Source: Myxococcota bacterium
GTDB lineage: Bacteria > Myxococcota_C > UBA6777
Length of the DNA: 28,478 nt
Assembly: GCA_023150835.1 (NCBI GenBank)
Contig: JAKLKB010000090.1
Span: forward strand, 1 to 28,478
Direction of reading: 5' to 3'
The position numbers and the translations under genes are program-made. Positions 10,825 to 28,397 of this stretch are shown here, in pieces (position 1 is the stretch's first letter; every line of letters begins with the position of its first letter). The notes beneath the pieces were generated by a model. That model ran no database searches. It was given only the letters and a program-made list of their open reading frames with translations, and was not told the DNA's origin.

Positions 10825-10916
10825 CGGAAGCGTACAGGAATCGAACCTGCCCACGAGGGATCACCCCGCACGACGGTTTTGAAGACCGCGAGCGCCACCA
10901 GACGCCATGCACTTCC
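10825..10916 (-). tRNA. selC: tRNA-Sec (anticodon UCA)
   Basis: On the minus strand the gene begins GGAAGTGC and ends ACGCTTCC plus discriminator G. It is ~92 nt, far longer than an ordinary tRNA. The anticodon arm is GCGGT-CTTCAAA-ACCGT with anticodon TCA. The D arm has a six-pair stem (GGCGTC/GGCGCT) closed by a four-base loop, a tRNA-Sec hallmark. A long variable arm and a T arm (GCAGG-TTCGATT-CCTGT) follow, close to E. coli selC in order and sequence. The innermost acceptor pair would be C-A and one pair is U-G. CCA is not encoded. The gene implies SelA/SelB and at least one UGA-decoded selenoprotein elsewhere; none is visible in the window. Confidence 0.93.
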
Positions 10917-11056: not shown

Positions 11057-14000
11057 TCACCCCTCTTCCCTAGCCTCTTCGATCTGCCCCTCTTTCCGAG
11101 CCTCTTCGATCTGCCCCACAGTTCGGGCCTCTTCGATCTGCCCCTCTTTCCGAGCCTCTTCGATCTGCCCCACAGTTCGGGCCTCTTCGATCTGCCCCAC
11201 AGTTCGGGCCTCTTCGACACGCCTTTCGTGCCGGATTTCTTCGAGCCACCCTCCCCACGCAGCCAAGGTTTCACCCACTTCATCCAACGCAAGCAGACCC
11301 GCCAAAAGACGGAAATACTCGCGATCTTTGCTGTGCCGATTGCCCTGCTCACCCGCCACCAAACGCTTGTGCATCTTGCGCATACGCCGCAACGCCTCCA
11401 ACACTTGGTGATGTTGGGCCAACGCCCCTTGAAAAGCTTCGCTGTGTTCGTCCAAAGCTTCAAAAGCCTGCTTCCACGTCCAAATACGTTGCTCTTCGCC
11501 AAACGGCAACGCCAAAAACAGCCGCCTCGCCTCGCGGTACGCTTCGGGCCATCGCTCCTCAAAACGATCCAAAGCCGTCGTGCGCGACGACTGTTCCGTC
11601 GACCAACTCGATGTCCGTTGCTCTTGTATCGCGTGCTCTTGTTCCGCTTCGTGCCAAACGTGCGCCGCCACATACGCCAACCATGTACCCTCTCGAACTT
11701 CCCCGATATCCGTGATCTCCGCAGCACGCGATCTTGTTCCCATCTCTTCTAACAACGCCATCACCTCTGCCAGCCATTCTTTGCGCATCTCTGCCCAAAC
11801 TTCCTCTCGATCCTCCCCCTCCCCATGCTCCCTCAACAGATAACGCGACTCTTCCTTGATGTGATGTTGCAACGTTGCTTCGTAATAGCGAGGAAAAAAG
11901 CTCGCCATCTCCTCCTCCGAGATCGTCCGAAAAAACCACAGCAAGGCCGCCATCTGCGCGGGTCTCCCTTGCCGCATCCCCAACGAAAGATCTGCTTTCA
12001 GAGACGAATACTGCGGAAAACATCGCCTCGGATCGATCCGAAACGTCCGAACAGCGGCCATCTCCCCAGACAAGGGACCTTCCCCAAACCATGAACCTTC
12101 CCCCTTCGCGGCTTCTTCCGCAAGCAAGGTGTCCACACCTTCCGCAAGCAAGGCCAACTCTGTCGGCCAAACCACCGACAAACGCCGCAACACCTTGGCC
12201 AAACCCACCGGCCACACAGGCACAGCCGCCGACCAACGCCCCGTCGAAGCCGAACGCTCTTCGCCTGTCGTACGCGATATCACCCGAACATCCCCATCCA
12301 CCGCACCTTCAACACGACGACTCATCGTCAAACGCTGCAATGACTCCAACAACTGTCTGCGGATCTCTTCGACACGCCAGATCTTGATCGTCCGCAACTT
12401 GGACTCCAACAAGAAGAATTGGCGCAAGATCTCCGTCACGTTTCGCAAAGACAACGCTCGCACCAAGTCACGCAACAACCTGCGCCGCCCCTTGATCTCT
12501 CGATCAAACGCTTGATCTTCCAACTGCAAGATGCGGTAGATGCGCTCTTTCGCTTGATCGCGATGCTCGTCTCTCTTTTCTTTGCTTTTTTCGAGCAGAA
12601 TCTTTTCCAACAACCTTTTGCTCTCGTCACGCAAAAGCTTCCGTTGCTCCGCAAGACTCCGCGTAAAATCATCCCGCTCAAACGCCTCCCTAACTTGCGC
12701 ACCTTCCGTCGCTTCCTCCCAACGACGCATCATATCCTCAAGATATCCACCCTCTCTTCTTTTTTTCTCCAGCGCCTGTGCTTCTCGACGTGCGGCTTGC
12801 ATACTCTGCTTGTAGTCTGCCAACAGTACCGCAAACTCCCTCCACGCCGCTCGTTGCTGTCTTCTCCCCTCCCACACTTCCAACGTTCCCCTCAACCACG
12901 CAACCTCTTCTTTACGCCCCAACTCCTTGCCATCCAAAACCTTGCGCAGATGGCCTACATAACGCGGCTGTTCGTTGGAGGCAAACCGATACAGCTTTGA
13001 AAAAAACACCTCCAACAAGGCCGATGCGTTGGGCAGATCAAACAAGGCCACCAAAAAACGCCGCTGCGCCGCCTCTTCGCCCTCCAACGCCTGCAACACG
13101 CCCTTCACGCTCACGGGCTCTGTCTTCATCAACTCGATCGTATGCGCCACCAAAAAATCCTGCTGCGCCTCTTCGATCAATGGAACACTCGCCGACTTGT
13201 AAGCCGAAAAGATCGGCAGAAAACGATCGTAGATCCCCAACAATGCGCCTCGTTGCTTTGGATCAAACGATGCCGCCTGCACGCTCACCTTCTGCAAGAT
13301 CTGTTGGCTATGCTGTAAAAACACCGGTAACAAACGCCGTAAGGGCCTCTGCTCTAGCGCATCCAACAACCGACGCAACGTCTCGACAAACCGCTGCGGA
13401 TCGCGACCCATCTCCCAAGAACGCGAACTCCAAAAAGCATCCGCATGTTGCCCCATCTCCAAAAAACGCAACGCCCAATCCTCTCCGATCGCCTCGCAGG
13501 TATGGCTCCTTTCCGCCCACTCCCCCAACGCCTCGACCGTCCCTTCCAAAGCAACCCTCAGGTAGTGCTCAGGTCCATGCTGTTGCAACGAACCTCCTTG
13601 CCAAGGCAAGATCGCCAACCGATACGCGATCTCCATCCGCAACGACACGATATGCTGCAACAAAAATTGGTTTGGCTGCTCCTGCTTAAACAACAACGAC
13701 TCCGCAAGCTGGATATGCAAAAGCGCTTTCTCAGGAGCCGTATCTGCGAGCTTTTCCGCCATCAAGCGCGCTGACAAGATCTGATCGTCCTGCTCTTGAA
13801 ATGAATATCCCCCGTACTCCGTACAAAAATCATCGATCTCCCCCTCCCAAACATCCCCCACATCCAACGCGATCCCACGCAACAAACCTGCGATCACACC
13901 TTGCTCCCCATGTGCCGAAAAGATCACCAGCCGCTCTCTCGAACGACTCAGCGCGATCCGCACCAGATCGATCGATTGACGCAAACGCAACAAACGCAGC

Positions 14001-15820
14001 GGATCGTCTTCAGAGACTTTTTCGAGTACGATATCCACCACCCCCACCCACTGAAAGTCCAACCCCTTGACCTCCGAAGACAACAAAAAGATCTCCGCAC
14101 CATTGCGCGCATAAGCCCCCTCTCCTTTGTCATAGAACTGCTGTGACGACGGGTACACCACACTCGGATACAACACCACCGAGTCCGGCAAATAACGAAA
14201 AAACGACAGCAGCCTTGCGAAGGCATACTTGGCCCCTTTGGGACCCGACTTCACCAAAAACACCGATGGCCGCTCGGTGATCTCCTCTTTGCTCGGAATA
14301 TGCGACAACCCGCTCGGTCGATACGCCTTTGGCAACCAAGCGCTGTATAGATCACGCGAGGCCCCCAAGATCTCCGCAATCAACGGCGGCGAACGCAAGT
14401 TGTCTCGCAAATCAAATTTCTCTGTCTGGTCGGGACCTCGGAAAAATTGACGACTCACATCCGCCCAATCAAAAAAGGTCGGACGTGCCGTCTGCCCCTC
14501 ATCCCCCGCCAACAAACACACCACCCGACCCGCCGCTCCCTTGTGCGCGACAGATCCTTTTGGCTCCAACTGCTCGCCCATTTGAGCGTGCTCTTGCAAA
14601 CGCGCCCAAAACCGCGACAGCACCCGAAACTCTAGCGGCGTCAAATCTTGGATCTCATCCACCACGATCCAATCCACACCCCGCAATCCCTCCGGGATCT
14701 CTCCCCCACCCTCCAATCGCCCCAAAGCCCACAACGCCAAAAACAACGGACGAAACAACTTCAACAACGTGAATTGCTTTTCTTCATCCTGTTGCGAGAC
14801 CTCTCCACGACGTTCACTCCGACGCATCGCCTCTTCTTGCGTCCTCTGCAAAAACTGCAACACCTGCACGACGCTTTGACCATCCCGTCCCAAGACTTCT
14901 TGACGATGCTTCAAATACGCATCTCTCTGAAACTCCCATGCCACCGCCCGTTGCACACCCTCCAAACGGCTCCCCCCTCCCACCGCTCGCGGAAAACAAT
15001 AACGCCCAAAAACCTGCCCATACATCTCCGCAAACAACAACTCCCACGCCCCCTCCCACCGCTGCAACGGCGTATAACGCTTCTCCGAAAACGTCGAAAA
15101 CAACCGCCCCAACTCCTCCTCATGCACAGAAAACAGCGCCGATTCTTCTTCCCCCGCCAGCCTCGCCCAAAAAGACACCAACGGCAAACAAGACACCCGC
15201 GTCGGCGTCTCCAAAGAACGAAAAAACGCCTCCGCTCGCTCCACCAACCGCTCGCTTAACGTCAAGTACAACACGTGCCGCGCACCATCGTTCTCCGCCG
15301 ACGCCAACGTCGACAACCACAACGACGTCGTCTTGCCTGTCCCGGGCAGCCCCTTTAACAAACGCAAGGCCGCCCGTGAGTGCGCCACTTTGTACTGATC
15401 CAACGAATACGGAGACTCCATCATCCCATCCGCTTCGTTAAAACACACCACCATCCGCAGTCTTTCAGGAGAGACCCTTTGGTACGCTTCGATCTCTCCT
15501 TCTGATAATTCTTCTGATGTCTCGTCATGATGCCGCAAGATCCGCAAGTAGATCTCTTCTCTGCGACCTCCCTTCCATGACATCGCCGAACCCGTCTTCC
15601 ACCACAGATAATAGTGGTAGCCTTGCACAGGCGAACGCAGCCACCCCTTCGCAACACCTTGGATCGCTTTGTAACTATTGCTCTGGCCTGTCGCCAAAAA
15701 TTGCTGCAACAACAGCGTCACCCTCCGCCGAAAAGTCTCTTGTGCAAAGCTTCCTTCTTCTAATTGAGCCACCAGATCCCTGTGCATAGACACCACATAC
15801 AGTTCTTGGCTGTCGTACAT
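11057..15820 (-). CDS. UvrD-like superfamily 1 helicase with ~950-aa helical tail and terminal repeats
   Basis: The protein has 1587 aa. ATG 15820 follows AAGGAG with 7-bp spacing. SF1 motifs appear in order: Walker A GLPGTGKTT (157-165), Walker B VVDEIQDL (386-393), motif III AGDEGQT (438-444), motif IV LRDNLRS (471-477), motif V SSEVKGLDF (581-589) and motif VI RIALSRSRERL (621-631). It is therefore an ATP-dependent translocase/helicase of the UvrD/PcrA type, but with ~155 extra residues before Walker A. Beyond ~640 the protein is almost entirely charged alpha-helix or coiled coil, with no nuclease motif I can recognise. It ends in six 9-residue repeats of EEARTVGQI/EEARKEGQI type. UvrD is ~720 aa, so this is more than twice the usual size. 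Standalone giant SF1 proteins of this shape occur in repair and defence, and the role here is unknown. It is divergent from the enoyl-CoA isomerase gene. Confidence 0.85.
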   Translation of the reverse strand: MYDSQELYVVSMHRDLVAQLEEGSFAQETFRRRVTLLLQQFLATGQSNSYKAIQGVAKGWLRSPVQGYHYYLWWKTGSAMSWKGGRREEIYLRILRHHDETSEELSEGEIEAYQRVSPERLRMVVCFNEADGMMESPYSLDQYKVAHSRAALRLLKGLPGTGKTTSLWLSTLASAENDGARHVLYLTLSERLVERAEAFFRSLETPTRVSCLPLVSFWARLAGEEESALFSVHEEELGRLFSTFSEKRYTPLQRWEGAWELLFAEMYGQVFGRYCFPRAVGGGSRLEGVQRAVAWEFQRDAYLKHRQEVLGRDGQSVVQVLQFLQRTQEEAMRRSERRGEVSQQDEEKQFTLLKLFRPLFLALWALGRLEGGGEIPEGLRGVDWIVVDEIQDLTPLEFRVLSRFWARLQEHAQMGEQLEPKGSVAHKGAAGRVVCLLAGDEGQTARPTFFDWADVSRQFFRGPDQTEKFDLRDNLRSPPLIAEILGASRDLYSAWLPKAYRPSGLSHIPSKEEITERPSVFLVKSGPKGAKYAFARLLSFFRYLPDSVVLYPSVVYPSSQQFYDKGEGAYARNGAEIFLLSSEVKGLDFQWVGVVDIVLEKVSEDDPLRLLRLRQSIDLVRIALSRSRERLVIFSAHGEQGVIAGLLRGIALDVGDVWEGEIDDFCTEYGGYSFQEQDDQILSARLMAEKLADTAPEKALLHIQLAESLLFKQEQPNQFLLQHIVSLRMEIAYRLAILPWQGGSLQQHGPEHYLRVALEGTVEALGEWAERSHTCEAIGEDWALRFLEMGQHADAFWSSRSWEMGRDPQRFVETLRRLLDALEQRPLRRLLPVFLQHSQQILQKVSVQAASFDPKQRGALLGIYDRFLPIFSAYKSASVPLIEEAQQDFLVAHTIELMKTEPVSVKGVLQALEGEEAAQRRFLVALFDLPNASALLEVFFSKLYRFASNEQPRYVGHLRKVLDGKELGRKEEVAWLRGTLEVWEGRRQQRAAWREFAVLLADYKQSMQAARREAQALEKKRREGGYLEDMMRRWEEATEGAQVREAFERDDFTRSLAEQRKLLRDESKRLLEKILLEKSKEKRDEHRDQAKERIYRILQLEDQAFDREIKGRRRLLRDLVRALSLRNVTEILRQFFLLESKLRTIKIWRVEEIRRQLLESLQRLTMSRRVEGAVDGDVRVISRTTGEERSASTGRWSAAVPVWPVGLAKVLRRLSVVWPTELALLAEGVDTLLAEEAAKGEGSWFGEGPLSGEMAAVRTFRIDPRRCFPQYSSLKADLSLGMRQGRPAQMAALLWFFRTISEEEMASFFPRYYEATLQHHIKEESRYLLREHGEGEDREEVWAEMRKEWLAEVMALLEEMGTRSRAAEITDIGEVREGTWLAYVAAHVWHEAEQEHAIQEQRTSSWSTEQSSRTTALDRFEERWPEAYREARRLFLALPFGEEQRIWTWKQAFEALDEHSEAFQGALAQHHQVLEALRRMRKMHKRLVAGEQGNRHSKDREYFRLLAGLLALDEVGETLAAWGGWLEEIRHERRVEEARTVGQIEEARTVGQIEEARKEGQIEEARTVGQIEEARKEGQIEEAREEG
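11073..11234 (-). repeat. 27-bp tandem repeat, six units of two alternating types
   Basis: The units encode EEARTVGQI or EEARKEGQI, in plus-strand order type A, B, A, B, B and one diverged unit. Each shares the same 14-16 first bases and differs in a cassette of about 13. The period keeps the helicase frame open to the last residues. There are no spacers, so this is not a CRISPR. Confidence 0.9.
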
Positions 15821-16043
15821 CCCGATGCTCCTTGGCTTGACTTGACAGGATCGCCGCAACTTTGTACAGCTTGGATCTTCTCTTCGTGCTTGGCCATCTT
15901 ACAGATCTGCCCAGAAAGCCCAAGTGCTGCTCCCTTCACACAACAAGGCTTCGCTCCCAAAAGGTAGGTCTTCCTTACTTTGGTTCTTTCTCGGTGATCT
16001 TTGCAATCCTTTTCTTCCTCTTTCGATACAGAAAGGTTCCACC

Positions 16044-18457: not shown

Positions 18458-19114
18458 ATGTTGCCGTCACTCTCTCCTCCACCGACGCAAGGCCCTATCC
18501 CATCGGCTCCAACAGAGCATGAACACGATCTTGCGCTCGCCACGCGCATCCTCGCAGGAGAACGCAGCGCATTTGCCCAACTCTACGAGGCTTGCGCTCC
18601 TGCTCTCCTGCGGCGACTCACCCGCATGACGGGGTCGATCGATCACGCCGAAGACTGCTTACAACAAGTCTTCGCGGAAGCCCTGCGCGCCTTGCCACAA
18701 TACCGAGGAAAAGGGCGTCTTGAGGCTTGGCTTGAACGCATCGCCACCCATACCGCGATGGGCTGGTATCGCAAAAAGTACCGCTGGCGCTCATTTGTCG
18801 AACAAGTGGTCGAGCAGCTCACCCCCGAATCCACGCTCCCTCAGCCCGACCCCTTGCCCGAACAAATTTTTCTTCACGAGGAGATGAAAGCCGTGGTGTG
18901 GCAACTTCTGGATCGACTCAGCCCTCGAAAGCGCATGGCTCTCGTGTTGTGCGATCTCGAAGGACGCACCATCGAAGAAGCTGCCGAACAGATGGATATC
19001 CCCGTCGGTACGGCGGCTTCTCGTCTCTTTCACGCACGTCAAGACTTCCGAAAGATCGCCCTCGCCGAACTGCGTCGTCAGGGCCTTGATGTGGGGGATT
19101 GGATCCATGATTGA
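18458..19114 (+). CDS. ECF (extracytoplasmic function) RNA polymerase sigma factor
   Basis: The protein has 218 aa. A GGAG lies ~11 bp before ATG 18458. Sigma region 2 covers ~30-107 (AFAQLYEACAPALLRRL, HAEDCLQQVFAEALRALPQY, LEAWLERIATHTAMGWYRKK), which contacts core polymerase and the -10 element. Region 4 covers ~143-200 (VWQLLDRLSPRKRMALVL, GRTIEEAAEQMDIPVGTAASRL), with the HTH that reads the -35 element. A Pro-rich N-terminal tail of ~20 aa is extra. The stop overlaps the next gene's start by 8 bp, so the two are translationally coupled, and the neighbour is the obvious candidate regulator. It probably responds to an envelope signal. The target promoters are not evident in the window. Confidence 0.92.
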   Translation: MLPSLSPPPTQGPIPSAPTEHEHDLALATRILAGERSAFAQLYEACAPALLRRLTRMTGSIDHAEDCLQQVFAEALRALPQYRGKGRLEAWLERIATHTAMGWYRKKYRWRSFVEQVVEQLTPESTLPQPDPLPEQIFLHEEMKAVVWQLLDRLSPRKRMALVLCDLEGRTIEEAAEQMDIPVGTAASRLFHARQDFRKIALAELRRQGLDVGDWIHD

Positions 19115-20438
19115 TCACACAAACAAACAAACCACCCCAAAAACGTCTCCAACCCCCGTTCTCTCGACCTTATGGGCGTCGGCCTCTTTGCGCGAAACCT
19201 ACGACGCTTGCCTTCCCTCCCCAGAACAAGAGCAAGAAAGCCTCGCCAAAGTTCGACGCCTGCTATCTCAAGACTTTTCGCCCTCGCCCAGCACTTCCTC
19301 CAACACATCCCCAAAACGGCCTTGGTTCCGCATCGCATGGGCAAGCATCGCAACCGTCGGAGCCTTCGCTTTTGTGCTTTTCCTCTGGCCGTATCTCGAA
19401 CCCCTCGAACCCTTCACTCTCCAAGGCATCTCCCCCACACAAACACAAAAAGACGGTTCGACCCATTTCCAAACAGACCAATCCACCGCAACCATCGCCT
19501 CCAAAGGCCACTGGTCGGTCGTCGTGGCCCCACGCTCTAGCATCATCCTCCAACGCAAAGCCGCCCGAAACACCGCCCTCCAACTCGCACACGGCCGCGT
19601 CCAAGTCGCCGTCACTCCCCAACAATACGAGTCCTTCACCGTTCATCACAAACGCTGGCAAGTCCGCGTCAAAGGCACACACTTCGCCGTCTCACAACAC
19701 GCACACACCTTGCGCATCGAAGTTTGGACAGGACAGGTCGAGATCCACAACGCCTCTCACCCAGATCACTCCTCTCACCCGTTTCGCCTCAACCAAGGCG
19801 AAGGTGCGCACATCGACCTTTCCACTTCTCGCGTCCGTCGTTTTCCCGTCCCTCCTCTTTCGCTCCCTCCCCAACAGCACCTATCATGGGCCTCCAAGCT
19901 CTCTCCCACGCTCTGCGCACAATACGCGCTCGATCTCCCCGCTCAAACCAACCTTCCCGCCCCGCTACGCGCACAGATCCTCCAACACCTCCTCGCCTCC
20001 CTCCTCTTCCGCAGCGAGCCTTCTCTCTGGCTCCCCTTGCTCGAAGCACAACAGCGCCTCGAACAAGATCCCCTCGCCCAAGAAACCGCCCTCTATCTAC
20101 TCCTCCAACGCTGCTATTCCACCGCCCCCACCCGTTGCCTCCCTCTCTCCACTTGGTACATCGAGCACTTCGCCAAACGCGGGATGCGGCCCTTCCTTGC
20201 TCGAATCCACTTTCTCCGCGCCGATGCCCTCGCCTCCCAACCCCACTCCGCCAAACAAGGACTCCTCGAACTCAAAAGCTTCCGCGAAACCTTCCCCCAA
20301 GGTCTCGATCGCCGCCGCGCTTGTGATCGCATCAAGATCACACTCCAACACACTTCTCTCCCTGATCTGCGATCACTGTCCGAAGAGATCGGTGTAAAAA
20401 GTCTTTGGTTTTCAAGACACTGCCCCTTTTCAAAATAA
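19107..20438 (+). CDS. FecR-domain single-pass membrane protein, probable anti-sigma regulator
   Basis: The protein has 443 aa from ATG 19107, which overlaps the sigma stop (ATGATTGA). The GGGGGA 8 bp upstream fits as a binding site. A cytosolic stretch of ~75 aa precedes one TM helix (~76-96, RIAWASIATVGAFAFVLFLW). A FecR-type domain follows at ~125-215, with the family signature VRVKGTHFAV (186-195) and EVWTGQVEIHN. The remaining ~220 residues look helical and periplasmic. Known FecR proteins pass a signal from outside to an ECF sigma factor. The position and topology support that role here. The N-terminal part shows no HxxxCxxC zinc anti-sigma motif, so how it would hold the sigma factor is unclear. 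Another plus-strand frame is open over most of the gene but lacks any domain and is a shadow. Confidence 0.85.
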   Translation: MIDHTNKQTTPKTSPTPVLSTLWASASLRETYDACLPSPEQEQESLAKVRRLLSQDFSPSPSTSSNTSPKRPWFRIAWASIATVGAFAFVLFLWPYLEPLEPFTLQGISPTQTQKDGSTHFQTDQSTATIASKGHWSVVVAPRSSIILQRKAARNTALQLAHGRVQVAVTPQQYESFTVHHKRWQVRVKGTHFAVSQHAHTLRIEVWTGQVEIHNASHPDHSSHPFRLNQGEGAHIDLSTSRVRRFPVPPLSLPPQQHLSWASKLSPTLCAQYALDLPAQTNLPAPLRAQILQHLLASLLFRSEPSLWLPLLEAQQRLEQDPLAQETALYLLLQRCYSTAPTRCLPLSTWYIEHFAKRGMRPFLARIHFLRADALASQPHSAKQGLLELKSFRETFPQGLDRRRACDRIKITLQHTSLPDLRSLSEEIGVKSLWFSRHCPFSK

Positions 20439-20916: not shown

Positions 20917-21648
20917 ATGCGTATCACTCTTTTTTTTCTCTTTTCTTTTTGGTTTCTTTGTCTCCATCTTGGCTGCGCGATCTTCGTCGATGGAAATGGT
21001 AAGATCTCCGAACAAACCCTTCCCATCGACAACTTTCAGACACTTCATCTTGATTATACTTTTCAAGTCAACGCACAGCCCAACGCCGCATATCGCGTCG
21101 TTGTTCGTGCAGATGAAAATATCTGGCCTTTTTTGGACATCAAAAAAACCAATGATCAAACGCTTTTTCTCGGAAGAAAAAGTACGATCTTTTCAAACAC
21201 CGTCAAAGGAAGCCTCGAAGCAACGGTGGCCATGTCCTCGTTTTCTTCGGCGAAAGTGACCAATGCAAGCCGACTTACGCTGGGAGCCTTTGCTTATACC
21301 GAAACTCTTACGCTCGATATCATCGGTGCTTCCGAATGTTCGGCCACTTCGCTTTCAGCGAACAGTGCGCAGATCAACGTCTCAGGAGGCAGTCGGCTCA
21401 GCCTTGGTGGGAACATCGCAACGCTCAAGATCGAAGCTTCTGGAGGAAGTACGCTCGATCTCAGCGGACTGACCGCACAGATCGCCGAGATCACGCTTTC
21501 AGGAAAAAGCCAGATCAATCACCTACAATTCGCAAACAACGGTCGACTTCGCGTCCGATTATCGGGCGCAAGCACGCTGCGTTATACAGGTTCGCCCGAG
21601 ATCGAGATCCTCGAAAACTCAGGCGGTAGCCAAATCATTCAACAATAG
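20917..21648 (+). CDS. Lipoprotein with head-GIN (DUF2807-like) beta-helix domain, first copy
   Basis: The protein has 243 aa from ATG 20917; the ribosome binding site is weak. MRITLFFLFSFWFLCLHLGC is a lipoprotein signal with Cys20. After a short N-terminal strand region (QTLHLDYTFQV), residues ~90-240 consist of short recurring strands with S-G-[AG]-S turns: NASRLTLGA, GASECSATSL, SGGSRLSLGG, SGGSTLDLSG, SGKSQINHL, SGASTLRYTG. This is the right-handed parallel beta-helix pattern of the head-GIN/DUF2807 domain, often annotated as a putative auto-transporter adhesin. It is likely lipid-anchored in the envelope, with unknown ligand. It is related in fold to the gene at 22224-23117, 575 bp downstream; two inverted copies of repeat family 1 lie between them. 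Confidence 0.82.
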   Translation: MRITLFFLFSFWFLCLHLGCAIFVDGNGKISEQTLPIDNFQTLHLDYTFQVNAQPNAAYRVVVRADENIWPFLDIKKTNDQTLFLGRKSTIFSNTVKGSLEATVAMSSFSSAKVTNASRLTLGAFAYTETLTLDIIGASECSATSLSANSAQINVSGGSRLSLGGNIATLKIEASGGSTLDLSGLTAQIAEITLSGKSQINHLQFANNGRLRVRLSGASTLRYTGSPEIEILENSGGSQIIQQ

Positions 21649-21670
21649 AAGTGGCGCGTTGGGTTTATTT

Positions 21671-21795
21671 TGTGGGGTTGGAACCCCAAACCCCACAAGG
21701 GACTCACGCCCCTTGACCCCGTGAGGGGCGAAAAGATCGCAGGCTTTTCAAAACAACGACTCTGTCGCTTGGACGGGCGCGATCACGGCTTTTTT
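21671..21795 (-). repeat. Structured dispersed repeat family 1, copy R5
   Basis: On the minus strand it reads GCCGTGATCGCG, TCCAAGCGACAG, TTTTGAAAAGCC, CACGGGGTCAAGGGG. Hairpin one is CAAGGG...CCCTTG; hairpin two is TGGGGTT-CC-AACCCCA, whose pairs differ from other copies on both sides. It is opposite in orientation to R6, 240 bp away. Confidence 0.85.
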
Positions 21796-21963
21796 GCCGC
21801 GCAACGGCTCAATAAACCACGAACAATATCTCGCTCTTCTCCTCTTTTTGGGGCTTGGCAGAGCCCTGATGTGGTCGTCTTTCTTGAAGTGAGTTGACAA
21901 CCTACAGGAAAGACGGCCACTTCCCTTTCGGGAAGACCTTTTCTTCTCTGCACACGGCCCAGA

Positions 21964-22223: not shown

Positions 22224-23117
22224 ATGAATACCTCATTTTCTCGTTGCCCGCGCACCCGAACCGACAAAACTATTTTCGAGATACTTTTCTCAAAAGCCCT
22301 GTCGATGGTGCTTTTCTCTGTTCTTGCGGTGCTTGTGATCGGATGTGGGCCGGGCCTTGTGGGTTCAGGCCCCACGATCACACAAGGGCTTTCGATCCAA
22401 GGCGTGCAACGCATCATCGTCCACGATTCCCTCAACGTACACATCTCCTACAGCGAGCAAGAAAAAGCCGATCTATCGGGCCATAGCAATCTGCTCCCCT
22501 ATTTCAAACACGAGCAAGTAGGCGACACGCTGAACTTGCGACTGCATCACGGGGCGCAAATCCTCGAAGGTGATCTGACGGTGGTGCTTGCCCTTCCGCG
22601 ATTACGCGAGCTGCGCGTGGTCGATGGCAGTCGCGTTCATCTCAAAAGGCTCGAAACGCGGGGCGATCTGCGTCTCGATTTCTCAGGAATGTCCGATATC
22701 CGAATCGATCTGCACACCGACGCACAAGTCGACATCGACATCAACGGCAGCAGCCGCGTCCAAGGGCAGCTTCGCGCCAACGTCATCCGATGGAAACTGA
22801 CGGGAAACAGCCGCGCTTTGGCCCGCGTCCACGCCGACCAAAACCACCTCGACGCAAGCGGTAGCAGTTGGGTGGAATTTGTGGGAGAGAGCAACCTCTT
22901 TCAGGTCGGATTATCGGGAGGTAGCAAAGGCTTCTTCTCTTCGCTCAAGGCCCAAGAGATCGACGCTCATCTCAGCGGCGCAAGCCAAGGCATCGTCAGC
23001 CACGACGGCAGCTTGCGCGCCCTGCTCGAAGGCGCAAGCAAGCTGTTTTGTCGCGGACAACCACATATCGAAAAACTCGACACCACGGGCGGTTCTGTCC
23101 TCGAACCCATCCAATAA
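22224..23117 (+). CDS. Lipoprotein with head-GIN (DUF2807-like) beta-helix domain, second copy
   Basis: The protein has 297 aa. ATG 22224 follows GAAGGAGTCTCTCCA, a strong site. The hydrophobic segment ~28-40 ends in the lipobox LVIGC (Cys41), so it is lipid-anchored, with an unusually long basic n-region of ~25 aa. The domain begins IQGVQRIIVHDSLNVHISYSE (~58-78), a typical DUF2807 opening, and continues with ladder strands: DGSRVHLKRL, SGMSDIRIDL, NGSSRVQGQL, TGNSRALARV, SGSSWVEFVG, SGGSKGFFSS, SGASQGIVSH, EGASKLFCRG, TGGSVLEPI. It shares architecture with the preceding lipoprotein but is longer and diverged, so the pair is an old duplication or two recruitments. No partner gene indicates a specific job. 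Confidence 0.85.
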   Translation: MNTSFSRCPRTRTDKTIFEILFSKALSMVLFSVLAVLVIGCGPGLVGSGPTITQGLSIQGVQRIIVHDSLNVHISYSEQEKADLSGHSNLLPYFKHEQVGDTLNLRLHHGAQILEGDLTVVLALPRLRELRVVDGSRVHLKRLETRGDLRLDFSGMSDIRIDLHTDAQVDIDINGSSRVQGQLRANVIRWKLTGNSRALARVHADQNHLDASGSSWVEFVGESNLFQVGLSGGSKGFFSSLKAQEIDAHLSGASQGIVSHDGSLRALLEGASKLFCRGQPHIEKLDTTGGSVLEPIQ

Positions 23118-23186: not shown

Positions 23187-23310
23187 AAAAAGCCCGTGTT
23201 CGCGCCACTCCAAGCGCCACCGTCGTTCGATTGAAAACATCTATTCACCCCGCCAAATACGGGGTCAAGGGAGCGTGGCTCCCTTGCGGGGCGTGGGGCA
23301 GCGCCCCACC
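23187..23310 (+). repeat. Structured dispersed repeat family 1, copy R7
   Basis: The best-folded copy. CAAGGGAG (23266-23273) pairs perfectly with CTCCCTTG (23279-23286), and GTGGGG (23293-23298) with CCCCAC (23304-23309). The outer part reads AGCCCGTGTTCGCGCC, TCCAAGCGCCA, GATTGAAAAC and CACCCCGCC. It lies between convergent genes, where it could act as a bidirectional terminator. Confidence 0.88.
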
Positions 23311-23379
23311 AAAGACAAAAACCACACCAACAAAACCAACCCAACGAACAATCGCCCCACCCGCGCTCAAAATCTCGAA

Positions 23380-24902: not shown

Positions 24903-25292
24903 TTACAAACGTAGTGCTGTCTCTTCTGTTTGCGTGAGATGAGCAAAAGAACACCGTTGGCCTCGATCAAACAAAGCATCTTCCTCTTTCAACAGCCAAG
25001 CATAAGAAAAGATCGCGTCAATACTTCCCCCCAAACCATTCTCGATCCGCCATAATGTCGAGCAAGAATAGCCTTTCGGCAACATCTCCACATCCGCCAA
25101 AAAGCGGCTTAACTTGGCGATCTCACCCAACGTCCATCCCTCCTTCTTCATCGGTTTTTTTCGAAAGACTTCAAGGTCGACGTCTGCTTTTTGCAAAGTG
25201 TCGAGGATCTCCAAACGAGGAAACAACATCCGCGCTCTCGCGACTGCAAGATGGTCACCGATCTCGGAAAGGTAGGCATTCAGTTTGTTCAT
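24903..25292 (-). CDS. Small XRE/HipB-like HTH protein, second paralog of the cassette
   Basis: The protein has 129 aa. ATG 25292 follows GAGGAACGAAAG; an in-frame extension to 25391 exists but has no site. Residues ~80-108 (YSCSTLWRIENGLGGSIDAIFSYAWLL) match the recognition helix and following helix of XRE/HipB-type DNA-binding domains (compare S-x-S-T-[IL]-x-R-[IL]-E-x-G). The part before, GWTLGEIAKLSRFLADVEML, would supply the earlier helices with an unusual insertion. It aligns end to end with the protein at 27194-27538 at about 47 identical positions of ~107 by hand. It is the last gene of the minus-strand cassette, 159 bp after the Lon-like gene, so it may also have its own promoter. 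A DNA-binding repressor is inferred, not shown. Confidence 0.7.
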   Translation of the reverse strand: MNKLNAYLSEIGDHLAVARARMLFPRLEILDTLQKADVDLEVFRKKPMKKEGWTLGEIAKLSRFLADVEMLPKGYSCSTLWRIENGLGGSIDAIFSYAWLLKEEDALFDRGQRCSFAHLTQTEETALRL

Positions 25293-25451
25293 CTTTCGTT
25301 CCTCACTCTCAGCGTGTTCGAGAAAAAAAGCATCCGCAACCACGGTACTCGCCGAGAGAAGTGATCCAAAAGCAACACTTCGGGTGAACAAATTTACTTT
25401 TTTACGCCCCCTCGCTCGAAAGAATACGATTTATCCCCCATCATCCGATGT

Positions 25452-26573
25452 TTATCGAATTTTACGGATCTCAGATTCCGCGATATTGCAGTAGTGATCG
25501 ATCTTTTCACGGTACGTCTTTTTCTCGCTCATCGCAGAGATAGGCCGCAACAGCTTTGGACGACCAATGGCTCCTGCCAAACGCTCGATTTCTTGTTCTC
25601 CGCAACGCTCCAGTCCGGGAGAGTGATCTATGCAGATATTGTGTAACTCCTTCATACTGCAAGCAAAATGACATGGAGGTGGCTGAGATCCAAAGCGTCC
25701 CAAAAAACGACAACGTTCTCGACAAATGCTTCCACAAGCACGCGCAACGATCACTCGCCGTTTACAGATCTCTTTGTAATCCATCACAAGATTCGGCCAT
25801 ACAGGACGCAAGATGCTTTGGCAGATATCTTGGCTCATAAAACACGAAGAAGCCAACAACAACGACAACAAGCCCAAGATCCCAAGCCAACGCCTCCAAC
25901 GAAAACTTCGCTTTTCTCGCCCTTGTAACCACTCGATCAATTCTTTGATTTGTTTTTCTGGGAAAAAGATCAACAATAATTTATCTTCTATCGACCGAGA
26001 CTTTTTCGCAAATCGCAAAGTATCCAGCGACTGTACTTGCTTTGGCCAAAAAACCGCCTCAACGCGCTCTTTTTGTCTTTCCAAAGAAGGTGCCAGCGCG
26101 TCGTAGCCCGAAGCTGGCAGCAAAAAAACGGTGTCGCCAAGAAGCGGGTTGGAGCCGTCCATCTCGCTTACCGATGAACTCAAAAGAATCTCCAACTTTT
26201 CCGGTAGCATCGAAGGAACAGAAACACCTCCGTCTGAAAAAACCAGCCCAGAAGCCCATACATTCGAGCGCGACAGCCGAAAAGGACGCACACAATCCGC
26301 TGCAGCCAACAAACAAGACAACGTTGCGGAAGCTCCGCGCCATTCATGTGCCAACGTGGTATTCGAGGACGGATATTTTTTCCACCAGAAACGCAAAGCA
26401 TCGTTTTCTTCTGGGAAAAAAGCTCCAAAAGCCTGCCTCGCTTGTGGCAACGCGAAAGCTTCGGACGGAAATAACTCATACCCTTTCGGGACATCAGGGG
26501 TTTTCGTCACGCAGATTTGGGCATACCCAATCTTTTTGTTGGGGAGAGCCAAAGGAAAAAAAAGCGACGTCAT
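25452..26573 (-). CDS. Membrane protein: Lon-like (S16) protease domain, one TM, Cys-rich C-terminal domain
   Basis: The protein has 373 aa. ATG 26573 follows GAAGGAG. Residues ~1-195 follow the Lon proteolytic domain: RGASATLSCLLAA (79-91) corresponds to Lon GPSAGIAMCTALV with Ser82 as nucleophile. VWASGLVFSDGGVSV then PSMLPEKLEIL corresponds to the strand-turn and GGLKEKLLAA with Lys126. Next, DTVFLLPASGYDAL and VEAVFWPKQVQSLDTLRFA match the last strands and helix. Ser-Lys spacing is 44, against 43 in E. coli Lon. No ATPase domain is present. A basic stretch (REKRSFRWRRW) precedes one TM helix (~228-243), placing the protease domain inside and a ~130-aa region with about a dozen Cys outside, probably disulfide-bonded. 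The alignment is by eye and the dyad could be inactive. It is 24 bp downstream of the 168-aa gene, clearly operonic. Confidence 0.65.
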   Translation of the reverse strand: MTSLFFPLALPNKKIGYAQICVTKTPDVPKGYELFPSEAFALPQARQAFGAFFPEENDALRFWWKKYPSSNTTLAHEWRGASATLSCLLAAADCVRPFRLSRSNVWASGLVFSDGGVSVPSMLPEKLEILLSSSVSEMDGSNPLLGDTVFLLPASGYDALAPSLERQKERVEAVFWPKQVQSLDTLRFAKKSRSIEDKLLLIFFPEKQIKELIEWLQGREKRSFRWRRWLGILGLLSLLLASSCFMSQDICQSILRPVWPNLVMDYKEICKRRVIVARACGSICRERCRFLGRFGSQPPPCHFACSMKELHNICIDHSPGLERCGEQEIERLAGAIGRPKLLRPISAMSEKKTYREKIDHYCNIAESEIRKIR

Positions 26574-26597
26574 CGATCACTCCTTCGATTGCGTGAT

Positions 26598-27104
26598 TTA
26601 GCAGTCTTCATCTTTGCTAAAGACCATCACACGAAAAGGAGATTGAAGAGGATCGAAATGAAGTTGTTCGACAAAAAGGATCTCTTGGCCTTCCATCTCT
26701 CGACCGAGAGGTAAGGTACAGATCGGATCATCCACCTCCTCGCCAAGATAAAAAGCCAACCACCATCCGTTCGGGCTTGGTTCCGTCGCTTTCCATGTTA
26801 AATCCAAATAGCCTCTGCCGTCCGATGCTCTCTGCAAATCCAAACGGAACTCAAATTGGCCAAGATGCCAAGCAGAAAAATCTACCTTTTTTTCCAAGCG
26901 CTCTCCTCCTGAAGCAGAAGATAATCGAACCTGTCCTTGAAGACACCAAGGAGGCTGAAATTCAAAAGGATTGGCTTCTGGTGTTGCAACGAGCAGTGGC
27001 ATCTCGCCGTGTTGAATGGCTCGGACGGCTTGTGGAGGAAGAATCCCTCGCGCCTGTAAATGCTTTGACCACCGCTGGAGAGGAGCAAAAAAATCTGACT
27101 TCAT
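26598..27104 (-). CDS. Hypothetical 168-aa protein of the Lon-like cassette
   Basis: I do not recognise this family. ATG 27104 follows AAGGACAGAAACC. There is no signal peptide or TM, so it is cytosolic. A short helical N-terminus (FAPLQRWSKHLQARGILPPQAVRAIQHGE) precedes ~120 residues that alternate hydrophobic and polar as in a beta-sandwich (FEFRLDLQR, RGYLDLTWKA, GWWLAFYLGE, EILFVEQLHF, FRVMVFSK). It starts 89 bp after the first HTH gene and ends 24 bp before the Lon-like gene, so it belongs to the same transcript. It could be a protease substrate, an adaptor or a ligand-binding subunit; the sequence does not decide. Confidence 0.75.
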   Translation of the reverse strand: MKSDFFAPLQRWSKHLQARGILPPQAVRAIQHGEMPLLVATPEANPFEFQPPWCLQGQVRLSSASGGERLEKKVDFSAWHLGQFEFRLDLQRASDGRGYLDLTWKATEPSPNGWWLAFYLGEEVDDPICTLPLGREMEGQEILFVEQLHFDPLQSPFRVMVFSKDEDC

Positions 27105-27193
27105 GGTTTCTGTCCTTACTTGTTCATAGAATGAAAAGGTAACCTTCTTTATAAAAAAGAGAGCGTGAAAATCTTTCTATCTCTTATTTATTT

Positions 27194-27538
27194 TCATTTT
27201 AACGAAATATCTGGATATGAAAATAACTCGTTCTCTGTATTTAAAATCCAAGCATACGTATAAATAGATTCCATACTTCCTCCTGCACCTCTTTCGATTC
27301 TACGAAATGTTGCATAAGAATAACATTCTGGCAACATTTTAATATCCTCTAAGAAACCATTGAGTGCAACGATCTCCGAGAGACTCCATCCGACATTCTC
27401 ACTTCGCTTGAACGTTGCGGTGTCCAACAGATGCTTTTTCAACGCGCTTGTCACTTCCGCACGTGGATCGCGCATATTTCTCCGAGCAACAGCAAAATAC
27501 TTCCCTATATGAAGCAAATATTTGTCCAATTGATCCAT
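27194..27538 (-). CDS. Small XRE/HipB-like HTH protein, first gene of the cassette
   Basis: The protein has 114 aa from ATG 27538, with AAAGG ~10 bp upstream. It is a paralog of the protein at 24903-25292: both begin M-x-x-L-x-x-YL-x-x-IG-x-x-x-AVAR and share GW[ST]LxEI, FLxD, MLP and YSxxTxxRIExGxGGS. The segment YATFRRIERGAGGSMESIYTYAWIL has the form of an XRE/HipB recognition helix and its successor. As the leading gene behind a promoter that contains a perfect dyad (27573-27591), autoregulation is a natural guess. The coding sequence is noticeably richer in A and T than the genes before 24600, which hints at separate acquisition of the cassette. Confidence 0.72.
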   Translation of the reverse strand: MDQLDKYLLHIGKYFAVARRNMRDPRAEVTSALKKHLLDTATFKRSENVGWSLSEIVALNGFLEDIKMLPECYSYATFRRIERGAGGSMESIYTYAWILNTENELFSYPDISLK

Positions 27539-27555: not shown

Positions 27556-27591
27556 GTTATAGGATGATGGTGGTGCTATTTTTAATAGCAC
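27556..27591 (-). promoter_or_regulatory. Cassette promoter with perfect dyad operator candidate
   Basis: GTGCTATT-TTT-AATAGCAC (27573-27591) is a perfect 8-bp inverted repeat with a 3-base centre. On the minus strand TATAAC (27556-27561) follows as a good -10 box, with an AT-rich -35 (TTAAAA) inside the dyad. The implied transcript would start ~11 nt before the first HTH ATG, which is short. A TATAAT (27664-27669) further upstream is an alternative start site. The dyad has no T-run and sits before a gene, so operator is likelier than terminator. Confidence 0.4.
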
Positions 27592-28397
27592 TCCCCGATC
27601 AAAATAAGCACAAATACGCAGCAAAAACCTCGGAACATCCGAGAATTGTTTTTTTTGAGCGCAATTATACACAAAGGGGAGCGCTATAAACATCTATTTT
27701 GCGAGAAAATTTTAAACAACACGCACCGAGCCGGGAGCCTGCCTCTTGTGAACAGAATAGTACACACAAAAGCGATCTCGATCTTTTCGCCTCATGAAAA
27801 AAACGGCCAAGCGAACTATCGCCTCTTTATGATCGCGAGTACTGTGCACTTCACGAAGAAAGTCGTCCACAATATGCAGCGCAAGAAGCTTGGGGCTCGG
27901 GTGAAAGATCACGTTGTTTTCTTGCATACCACCGAGCAGGGCGCAGCGTTGGAATGTTGTGAGGAGGATGTTTACAACGAAGGCAACCGCATCGACAACA
28001 AGTGATACAAACGAAGTCGCAGCGATGACTGCGCACCGACGAGCAAACGTGGACGTACCAAGGAGCCGACAAGGCCATCTAGCGACCACACGCAATGGAG
28101 ATGAACAAGCAAAGACAAGTCCGTTTCGGCGTGGGCGTCTGAAACGGACAACGAAACCAAATCAACGAAGTTTTATCGCAGAACTCCACTTCCAACAACC
28201 GCGTTGTGAAAGCCGTCAAACGTACCGCTCACCTTGATGGTTGAAGATCTGCGGCCTGCCGTGTCGGTGTATTTGGTCAGAGTCAACAATTTTTCATCAG
28301 ATGAAAAGACAAGAAGGCAACGATGAGGGTACAAAAAAACGAAAGGTTGAAACGCAAACCAACCTATGATCAAACAAAGCCACGGAGATTTTGTTTC
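27592..28397. other. ~800 bp without a recognisable gene
   Basis: Frames on both strands are open for up to ~125 codons (27646-28005 plus, 27712-28095 minus), but neither gives a recognisable protein or has a good binding site, and they overlap each other. A 9-bp inverted repeat GTCCGTTTC/GAAACGGAC (28119-28127 and 28141-28149) is the only clear structure. The stretch may hold the decayed remains of a gene or the leader of the gene starting at 28398. Confidence 0.4.

Follow-up and report, generated by a model that had tools for sequence, protein, structure and literature searches.

A recurring operon of a regulator, a β-sandwich protein and a Lon-like protease domain as a possible proteolytic switch on transcription

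A four-gene locus with a recurring core of three genes

The window analysed here is a whole contig of 28,478 bp (JAKLKB010000090.1) from a genome of 7.56 Mb in 239 contigs, and its minus strand carries a cassette of four consecutive genes. The first, HTH1 (P0004; 27194..27538), encodes a divergent XRE-like helix–turn–helix (HTH) protein of 114 amino acids (aa), a proposed transcription regulator. It is followed after 89 bp by the gene for a 168-aa protein, here termed the β protein (P0003; 26598..27104), which we propose to inhibit the regulator or act as its adaptor and to be a protease substrate, and after a further 24 bp by the gene for a 373-aa Lon-like protein (P0002; 25452..26573), which consists of an N-terminal Lon proteolytic domain, one membrane helix and a Cys-rich C-terminal part. 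HTH2 (P0001; 24903..25292; 129 aa), 159 bp further on, encodes a paralogue of HTH1. This arrangement agrees with an initial annotation made from the sequence alone, which had described four same-strand genes at this place and with this spacing, the first and last of them paralogous; the two HTH proteins share 45% identity (E = 2.2e-24). None of the four proteins gave a match above cut-off in Pfam, NCBIfam or PADLOC, and annotation pipelines miss the β protein and the Lon-like protein because neither matches a family in Pfam or NCBIfam.

The order regulator, β protein, Lon-like protein is found at six loci (the window and five others), with the β protein as the middle gene at all six and, at most joints, neighbouring genes that overlap or lie no more than 40 bp apart. 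Five recurrences of this ordered set elsewhere place the cassette far beyond chance. A diverged second copy is present in the same genome (contig C214), where it was matched by both the 373-aa (E = 1.9e-11) and the 168-aa (E = 2e-12) queries, and the orthologue of that copy lies in a sister genome (G001, contig C174); in both, the first gene is an HTH homologue. In another genus (G003), the copy on contig C10 begins with a fusion of two HTH units and the copy on contig C96 with a divergent extracytoplasmic function (ECF) sigma factor. The sixth and most distant copy belongs to another phylum (G634), probably Myxococcota, because this phylum was reached through a genome with several MYXO-CTERM proteins. 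The homologues at these six loci thus keep a shared gene neighbourhood rather than lying scattered. A lone gene in G003 (contig C13; L029 6540-8711, minus strand) encodes a Lon domain, a transmembrane helix and a WD40 domain with no regulator or β gene beside it; its partners may be encoded elsewhere.

The conserved core comprises three genes, not four. No HTH gene was seen downstream of the other copies, and HTH2, having no counterpart there, is therefore taken to be a local duplication outside the core; a separate HTH pair, in fused form, exists in the other genus. Of the four-gene cassette described initially, the first three genes thus stand as a unit and the fourth does not. Two further genomes of the same family (G002 and G004) contain no copy of the cassette, a scan of genome contigs with the P0002 sequence alone returned no matches, a β-family profile search of genome contigs matched two metagenome-assembled genomes only, and no relatives were found in viral contigs, phages or plasmids. 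The organisms with the repeated operon are a little-known group of large-genome bacteria, with one copy in another phylum.

Domains of the protease, the β protein and the regulators

The 373-aa protein had initially been credited with a Lon-type Ser–Lys domain, and both profile and structure comparisons bear this out. A profile of six relatives aligned with LonB protease domains at an hhalign probability of 95% (E = 2.6e-8), in which Ser82 and Lys126 coincide with the catalytic Ser and Lys, respectively; the dyad was also aligned with that of LonC. The signal depends on the family profile, as P0002 alone fails against LonB (probability 0.1%). In a PDB search with the family profile, LonC gave the only matches, at E values (0.26–0.32) that are not significant alone. 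In the AlphaFold model, for which the predicted local distance difference test (pLDDT) score has a mean of 65 and is mostly 80–88 in the first 180 residues, residues 1–219 match the Lon proteolytic domain (Z = 15.3 over 162 residues, root-mean-square deviation 2.9, human Lon). The best 50 structural matches are mostly Lon, and the remainder are the Lon-like domains of ComM, RadA and BrxL. Among seven divergent sequences, one of them from another phylum, 11 of 175 gapless columns are invariant, and these include both Ser82 and Lys126; the chance that two given positions both fall in this set is about 0.004. Taken together, the alignments and the model indicate that the protein carries a Lon (S16) proteolytic domain under selection to keep its Ser–Lys dyad, and this domain is predicted to be an active protease. 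No AAA+ domain is present on the 373-aa chain, which begins with the Lon domain at residue 1, continues into the membrane helix and has no Pfam match; the protein is therefore not LonA, LonB or LonC. When 386 mostly distant genomes were searched with the Lon-like profile, the only matches besides the family itself were seven LonB-type proteases (E = 5e-5 to 8e-4), which all carry the GDSAS active-site motif of that type and were not counted as members.

The window protein has one hydrophobic helix at about residues 228–248 and ten Cys residues after the helix core, matching the single transmembrane segment and Cys-rich outer part proposed at the outset. The Cys-rich part contains the motif CX3CX3C-X12-CX3C, and the pattern CX3CX3C...CX3C is common to the Cys-rich parts of the window protein and the G003 C10 protein. 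A basic stretch precedes the helix, which suggests that the Lon domain is cytosolic; the Cys-rich part is probably extracytoplasmic, reached through the one membrane helix. The copies in the window's family likewise have a Lon domain and then one hydrophobic helix, behind which lie a Pro/Ser/Arg-rich linker and a short C-terminal segment (C214 and G001 copies) or a coiled coil and WD40 repeats (G003 C96 and C13). In G634, the Lon-like domain is fused to NB-ARC and TPR domains and there is no membrane helix.

The β protein is modelled by AlphaFold with two short, weak helices at the N terminus, a disordered linker at about residues 35–50 and a confident C-terminal β-sandwich (pLDDT about 83–93 over most of residues 70–160). 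The structural neighbours of the sandwich are mostly MATH/TRAF/SIAH domains with Z scores of 6–7.4, a range typical of common structural arrangements; all matches have Z below 8.3 and the top one is unrelated, and we withhold a MATH/TRAF assignment. Neither Foldseek nor VIA-align gave a clear single relative. Searching 377 genomes of another phylum with the β-protein profile yielded one match, the middle gene of the G634 locus (E = 2.8e-12). Its product (P0008) carries a zf-HC2 zinc finger ahead of the β domain (E = 6.1e-7, above cut-off), and zf-HC2 domains typify anti-sigma factors that bind zinc. A 4-bp overlap joins this gene to the following one, whose product contains the Lon-like domain (profile E = 2.8e-19, for a set scaled to 1000 sequences), and the group is flanked by two genes that read, by eye, as Ser/Thr kinases. 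Because of the zf-HC2 fusion and the sigma-factor neighbour in its relatives, the β protein is likeliest to be an inhibitor of the transcription regulator. The initial annotation had offered adaptor, effector or substrate as its role; on the same evidence, inhibitor and probable substrate is the version that we favour.

The XRE-like signature noted in both small proteins is supported, in a divergent form. A match to Pfam HTH_31 falls below the cut-off (E = 0.033); an HTH profile aligned with XRE domains of the same genome at an hhalign probability of 90% (E = 1.5e-6), the alignment containing an insertion of about 13 residues, and six homologous HTH units share an invariant S..R.E.G motif. These comparisons support the placement of the HTH proteins as divergent XRE-like proteins. 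RpoN, which appeared as a possible relative in the PDB (E = 0.089), was dropped because the comparison with XRE profiles was far better. The regulator of the G003 C96 copy matches the sigma-factor model TIGR02937 with E = 1.2e-10, its 41.2 bits falling just under the cut-off of 42.9.

A possible proteolytic switch and its alternatives

We propose that the operon controls transcription through a proteolytic switch gated by a stimulus, a reading that we hold to be evenly poised. The β protein would bind the regulator (an XRE-like HTH protein here, an ECF sigma factor in a relative) and keep it inactive. A sensor fused behind the Lon domain, an architecture that is seen at these loci, would detect a signal, and in the window the Cys-rich, probably extracytoplasmic part would serve this purpose. 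The cytosolic, ATPase-free Lon domain, in which the active-site residues are present, would then be switched on and cut the β protein; the flexible linker that joins the N-terminal helices to the β-sandwich is the probable site of the cut. The freed regulator would in turn alter transcription. The downstream HTH duplication hints at a further level of control, for example autorepression or heterodimer formation. This proposal is supported by the gene order at six loci, the invariant dyad, the Lon fold, the ECF sigma factor in the regulator slot and the zf-HC2 fusion. The swapping of sensors and regulators supports it further, because the Lon domain stays while the sensors differ (Cys-rich, WD40, or NB-ARC with TPR). 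Cleavage, substrate and signal are its conjectural parts, with the β protein as substrate the largest uncertainty, and our overall confidence sits midway between acceptance and rejection.

Several points weigh against such a switch. To our knowledge, control of the anti-sigma kind has been established for sigma factors alone, not for XRE-like proteins, and Lon-fold domains such as those of RadA and ComM can serve as scaffolds without activity. The window β protein has no HX3CX2C zinc finger and no anti-sigma match, and the 493-aa product of the first G634 gene has no recognisable sigma, HTH or other domain. In the WD40 versions, strongly basic residues follow the helix, and the flanking charges leave the orientation uncertain.

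The HTH repressor was the substrate favoured by the initial annotation, and a related alternative, in our view unlikely, is that the Lon-like protease degrades the HTH protein directly with the β protein as delivery adaptor, so that loss of the repressor would derepress the operon and its targets. Small regulators are common Lon substrates, and the MATH/TRAF/SIAH domains that dominate the best β-sandwich neighbours are substrate-binding domains of a fold often found in adaptors. However, those Z scores, with an unrelated top match, do not exceed the common range, the sigma- and zf-HC2-containing copies fit an inhibitor better, and without a fused AAA+ unfoldase a single cut is more natural than full degradation of a folded HTH protein; the zinc-finger relative and the ECF sigma neighbour favour the 168-aa protein as inhibitor and probable substrate instead. 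We regard it as very improbable that the Lon-like domain only oligomerises or binds, without proteolysis, and that the system signals by conformational change across the membrane. Such a role would suit the missing AAA+ motor and the presence of RadA, ComM and BrxL among the best structural matches, since Lon-like domains of this kind can lack proteolysis, but it leaves the strict retention of both Ser and Lys, among so few invariant positions, as an occurrence of low probability.

Distinctly unlikely, too, is a defence-like system in which the β protein or a fragment of it is an effector (for example, of growth arrest or cell death) freed by the protease, the HTH protein or sigma factor only setting operon expression. 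The union of Lon, NB-ARC and TPR domains in G634 has the layout of bacterial NLR-type systems, mobile elements adjoin two of the copies, and a caspase, an ECF sigma factor and DUF1822 are coupled in published conflict systems (PMC8195603). Nevertheless, the β protein has no effector-like domain, the four window proteins have no matches to defence models, and searches of viral, phage and plasmid collections gave no matches.

The proposed switch resembles several described systems. In type III CRISPR, the Lon protease CalpL cleaves the anti-sigma factor CalpT and thereby releases the ECF sigma factor CalpS (PMC11417357). Here, too, a Lon protease domain with a putative sensor behind it, a predicted regulator-binding partner and a transcription regulator are encoded together; an ECF sigma factor occurs at one locus and an anti-sigma zinc finger at another, never both at one locus and neither in the window. 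Unlike in the Calp system, the sensors are a membrane helix with a Cys-rich part, WD40 or NB-ARC, the window has an XRE-like HTH protein where the sigma factor stands, and the middle protein belongs to a β-sandwich family without a library match. The SAVED domain that is fused to Lon in CalpL had no match in the window or in the copies scanned, and no cas genes or CRISPR array were noticed in the stretches read, although no search aimed at these was made. Csx29, a TPR-CHAT protease found with Cas7-11, cleaves Csx30 and relieves the inhibition of CASP-σ (PMC10028731). We infer the same logic for the window, that is, a protease that cuts an inhibitor holding a transcription factor, whereas the enzyme there is a CHAT cysteine protease under RNA-guided activation and here a Lon Ser–Lys domain with other sensors. 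EACC2-caspase systems, which contain an ECF sigma factor and DUF1822, described as a TPR protein (PMC8195603), share a constant protease domain, a variable sensor part, an ECF sigma gene and a third protein, with a caspase in place of Lon.

DegS/RseA, RsiW and FecR/ECF pairs are alike in that an envelope signal leads to release of a regulator through proteolysis of an inhibitor. In the DegS/RseA and RsiW type, the inhibitor is a membrane-spanning anti-sigma factor, and the protease that acts first does so on the outer side; here, by contrast, it is the protease that crosses the membrane, and the putative inhibitor is a soluble protein. ImmR/ImmA, the comparison drawn initially, likewise combines an HTH regulator with a dedicated protease gene, but ImmA is a zinc metalloprotease and no HEXXH motif is present in the four window proteins, whose sequences were read directly. 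With no ImmA-type metalloprotease at the locus, the Calp and Csx29/Csx30 systems are the closer parallels.

We found no described family or paper with this composition in the libraries and papers searched, in line with the original impression of novelty; in kind, the operon would belong with protease-gated regulator release. A paper on protease-containing conflict systems does not mention the word Lon (PMC7159879), and the only Lon-based version in the literature searched, a scope outside which most subscription journals fall, is the CRISPR one. We tentatively suggest an undescribed signalling class in which a standalone, ATPase-free Lon domain takes the role of a caspase or CHAT protease, with a conserved β-sandwich inhibitor, swappable regulators (XRE-like HTH or ECF sigma) and swappable sensors (membrane-anchored Cys hairpin, WD40 propeller or NLR-type NB-ARC/TPR), in at least two phyla. 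If this is correct, protease-gated inhibitor release would also operate outside CRISPR, with the Lon domain on a membrane or NLR-type protein; a fixed protease–inhibitor core would accept many sensors and regulators, down to the exchange of a sigma factor for an HTH protein; and the CRISPR Calp system would fall within a wider group.

Promoter region, mobility and other features of the window

A perfect palindrome, GTGCTATT-TTT-AATAGCAC (27573..27591), lies 34–52 nt upstream of the HTH1 start codon and is a candidate operator, although its right half coincides with the end of a dispersed repeat. It is the sole match in the window at up to three mismatches, against 0.05 expected from shuffled sequence. 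The repeat (27583..27691), about 110 bp long and resembling a miniature inverted-repeat transposable element, adjoins the HTH1 promoter region and has terminal inverted repeats (ATAGCRCTCCCC/GGGGAGCGCTAT) and an internal stem–loop with a T run. Five other copies are present in the same genome and three in the sister genome (72–91% identical; ends set by alignment). An inverted 15-nt match with a GGATGATGG core, located at 25435-25449 and 27559-27573 upstream of HTH2 and HTH1, respectively, could be a shared operator or chance.

The position of the cassette is not conserved: relatives of the thiolase that adjoins it in the window occur in G002, G003 and G004, of which G002 and G004 have no cassette, and the G003 cassettes sit on other contigs. 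An IS4/5-type transposase follows the G003 C10 copy, and G+C content falls from about 56% to 43–49% across the window cassette. Horizontal movement of the cassette is plausible, not proven.

Elsewhere in the window, a second family of dispersed repeats, about 130–150 bp long, is represented by parts at 21644-21808 and 23187-23313; the sister genome contains dozens of its copies, in both orientations. A separate envelope-signalling pair comprises an ordinary ECF sigma factor (18458-19114, plus strand) and a FecR-domain protein (19086-20438, plus strand), and two consecutive plus-strand genes (20917-21648 and 22224-23117) encode putative surface proteins with DUF2807 (head GIN domain). A 1600-aa protein (11057-15859, minus strand) has no Pfam match at E = 0.001; it contains a Walker A motif (GLPGTGKTTSL) and ends in a tail of EEARTVGQI/EEARKEGQI repeats. 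Positions 10826-10916 (minus strand) encode a selenocysteine tRNA (Rfam RF01852, 70.6 bits), and the organism therefore probably makes selenoproteins.

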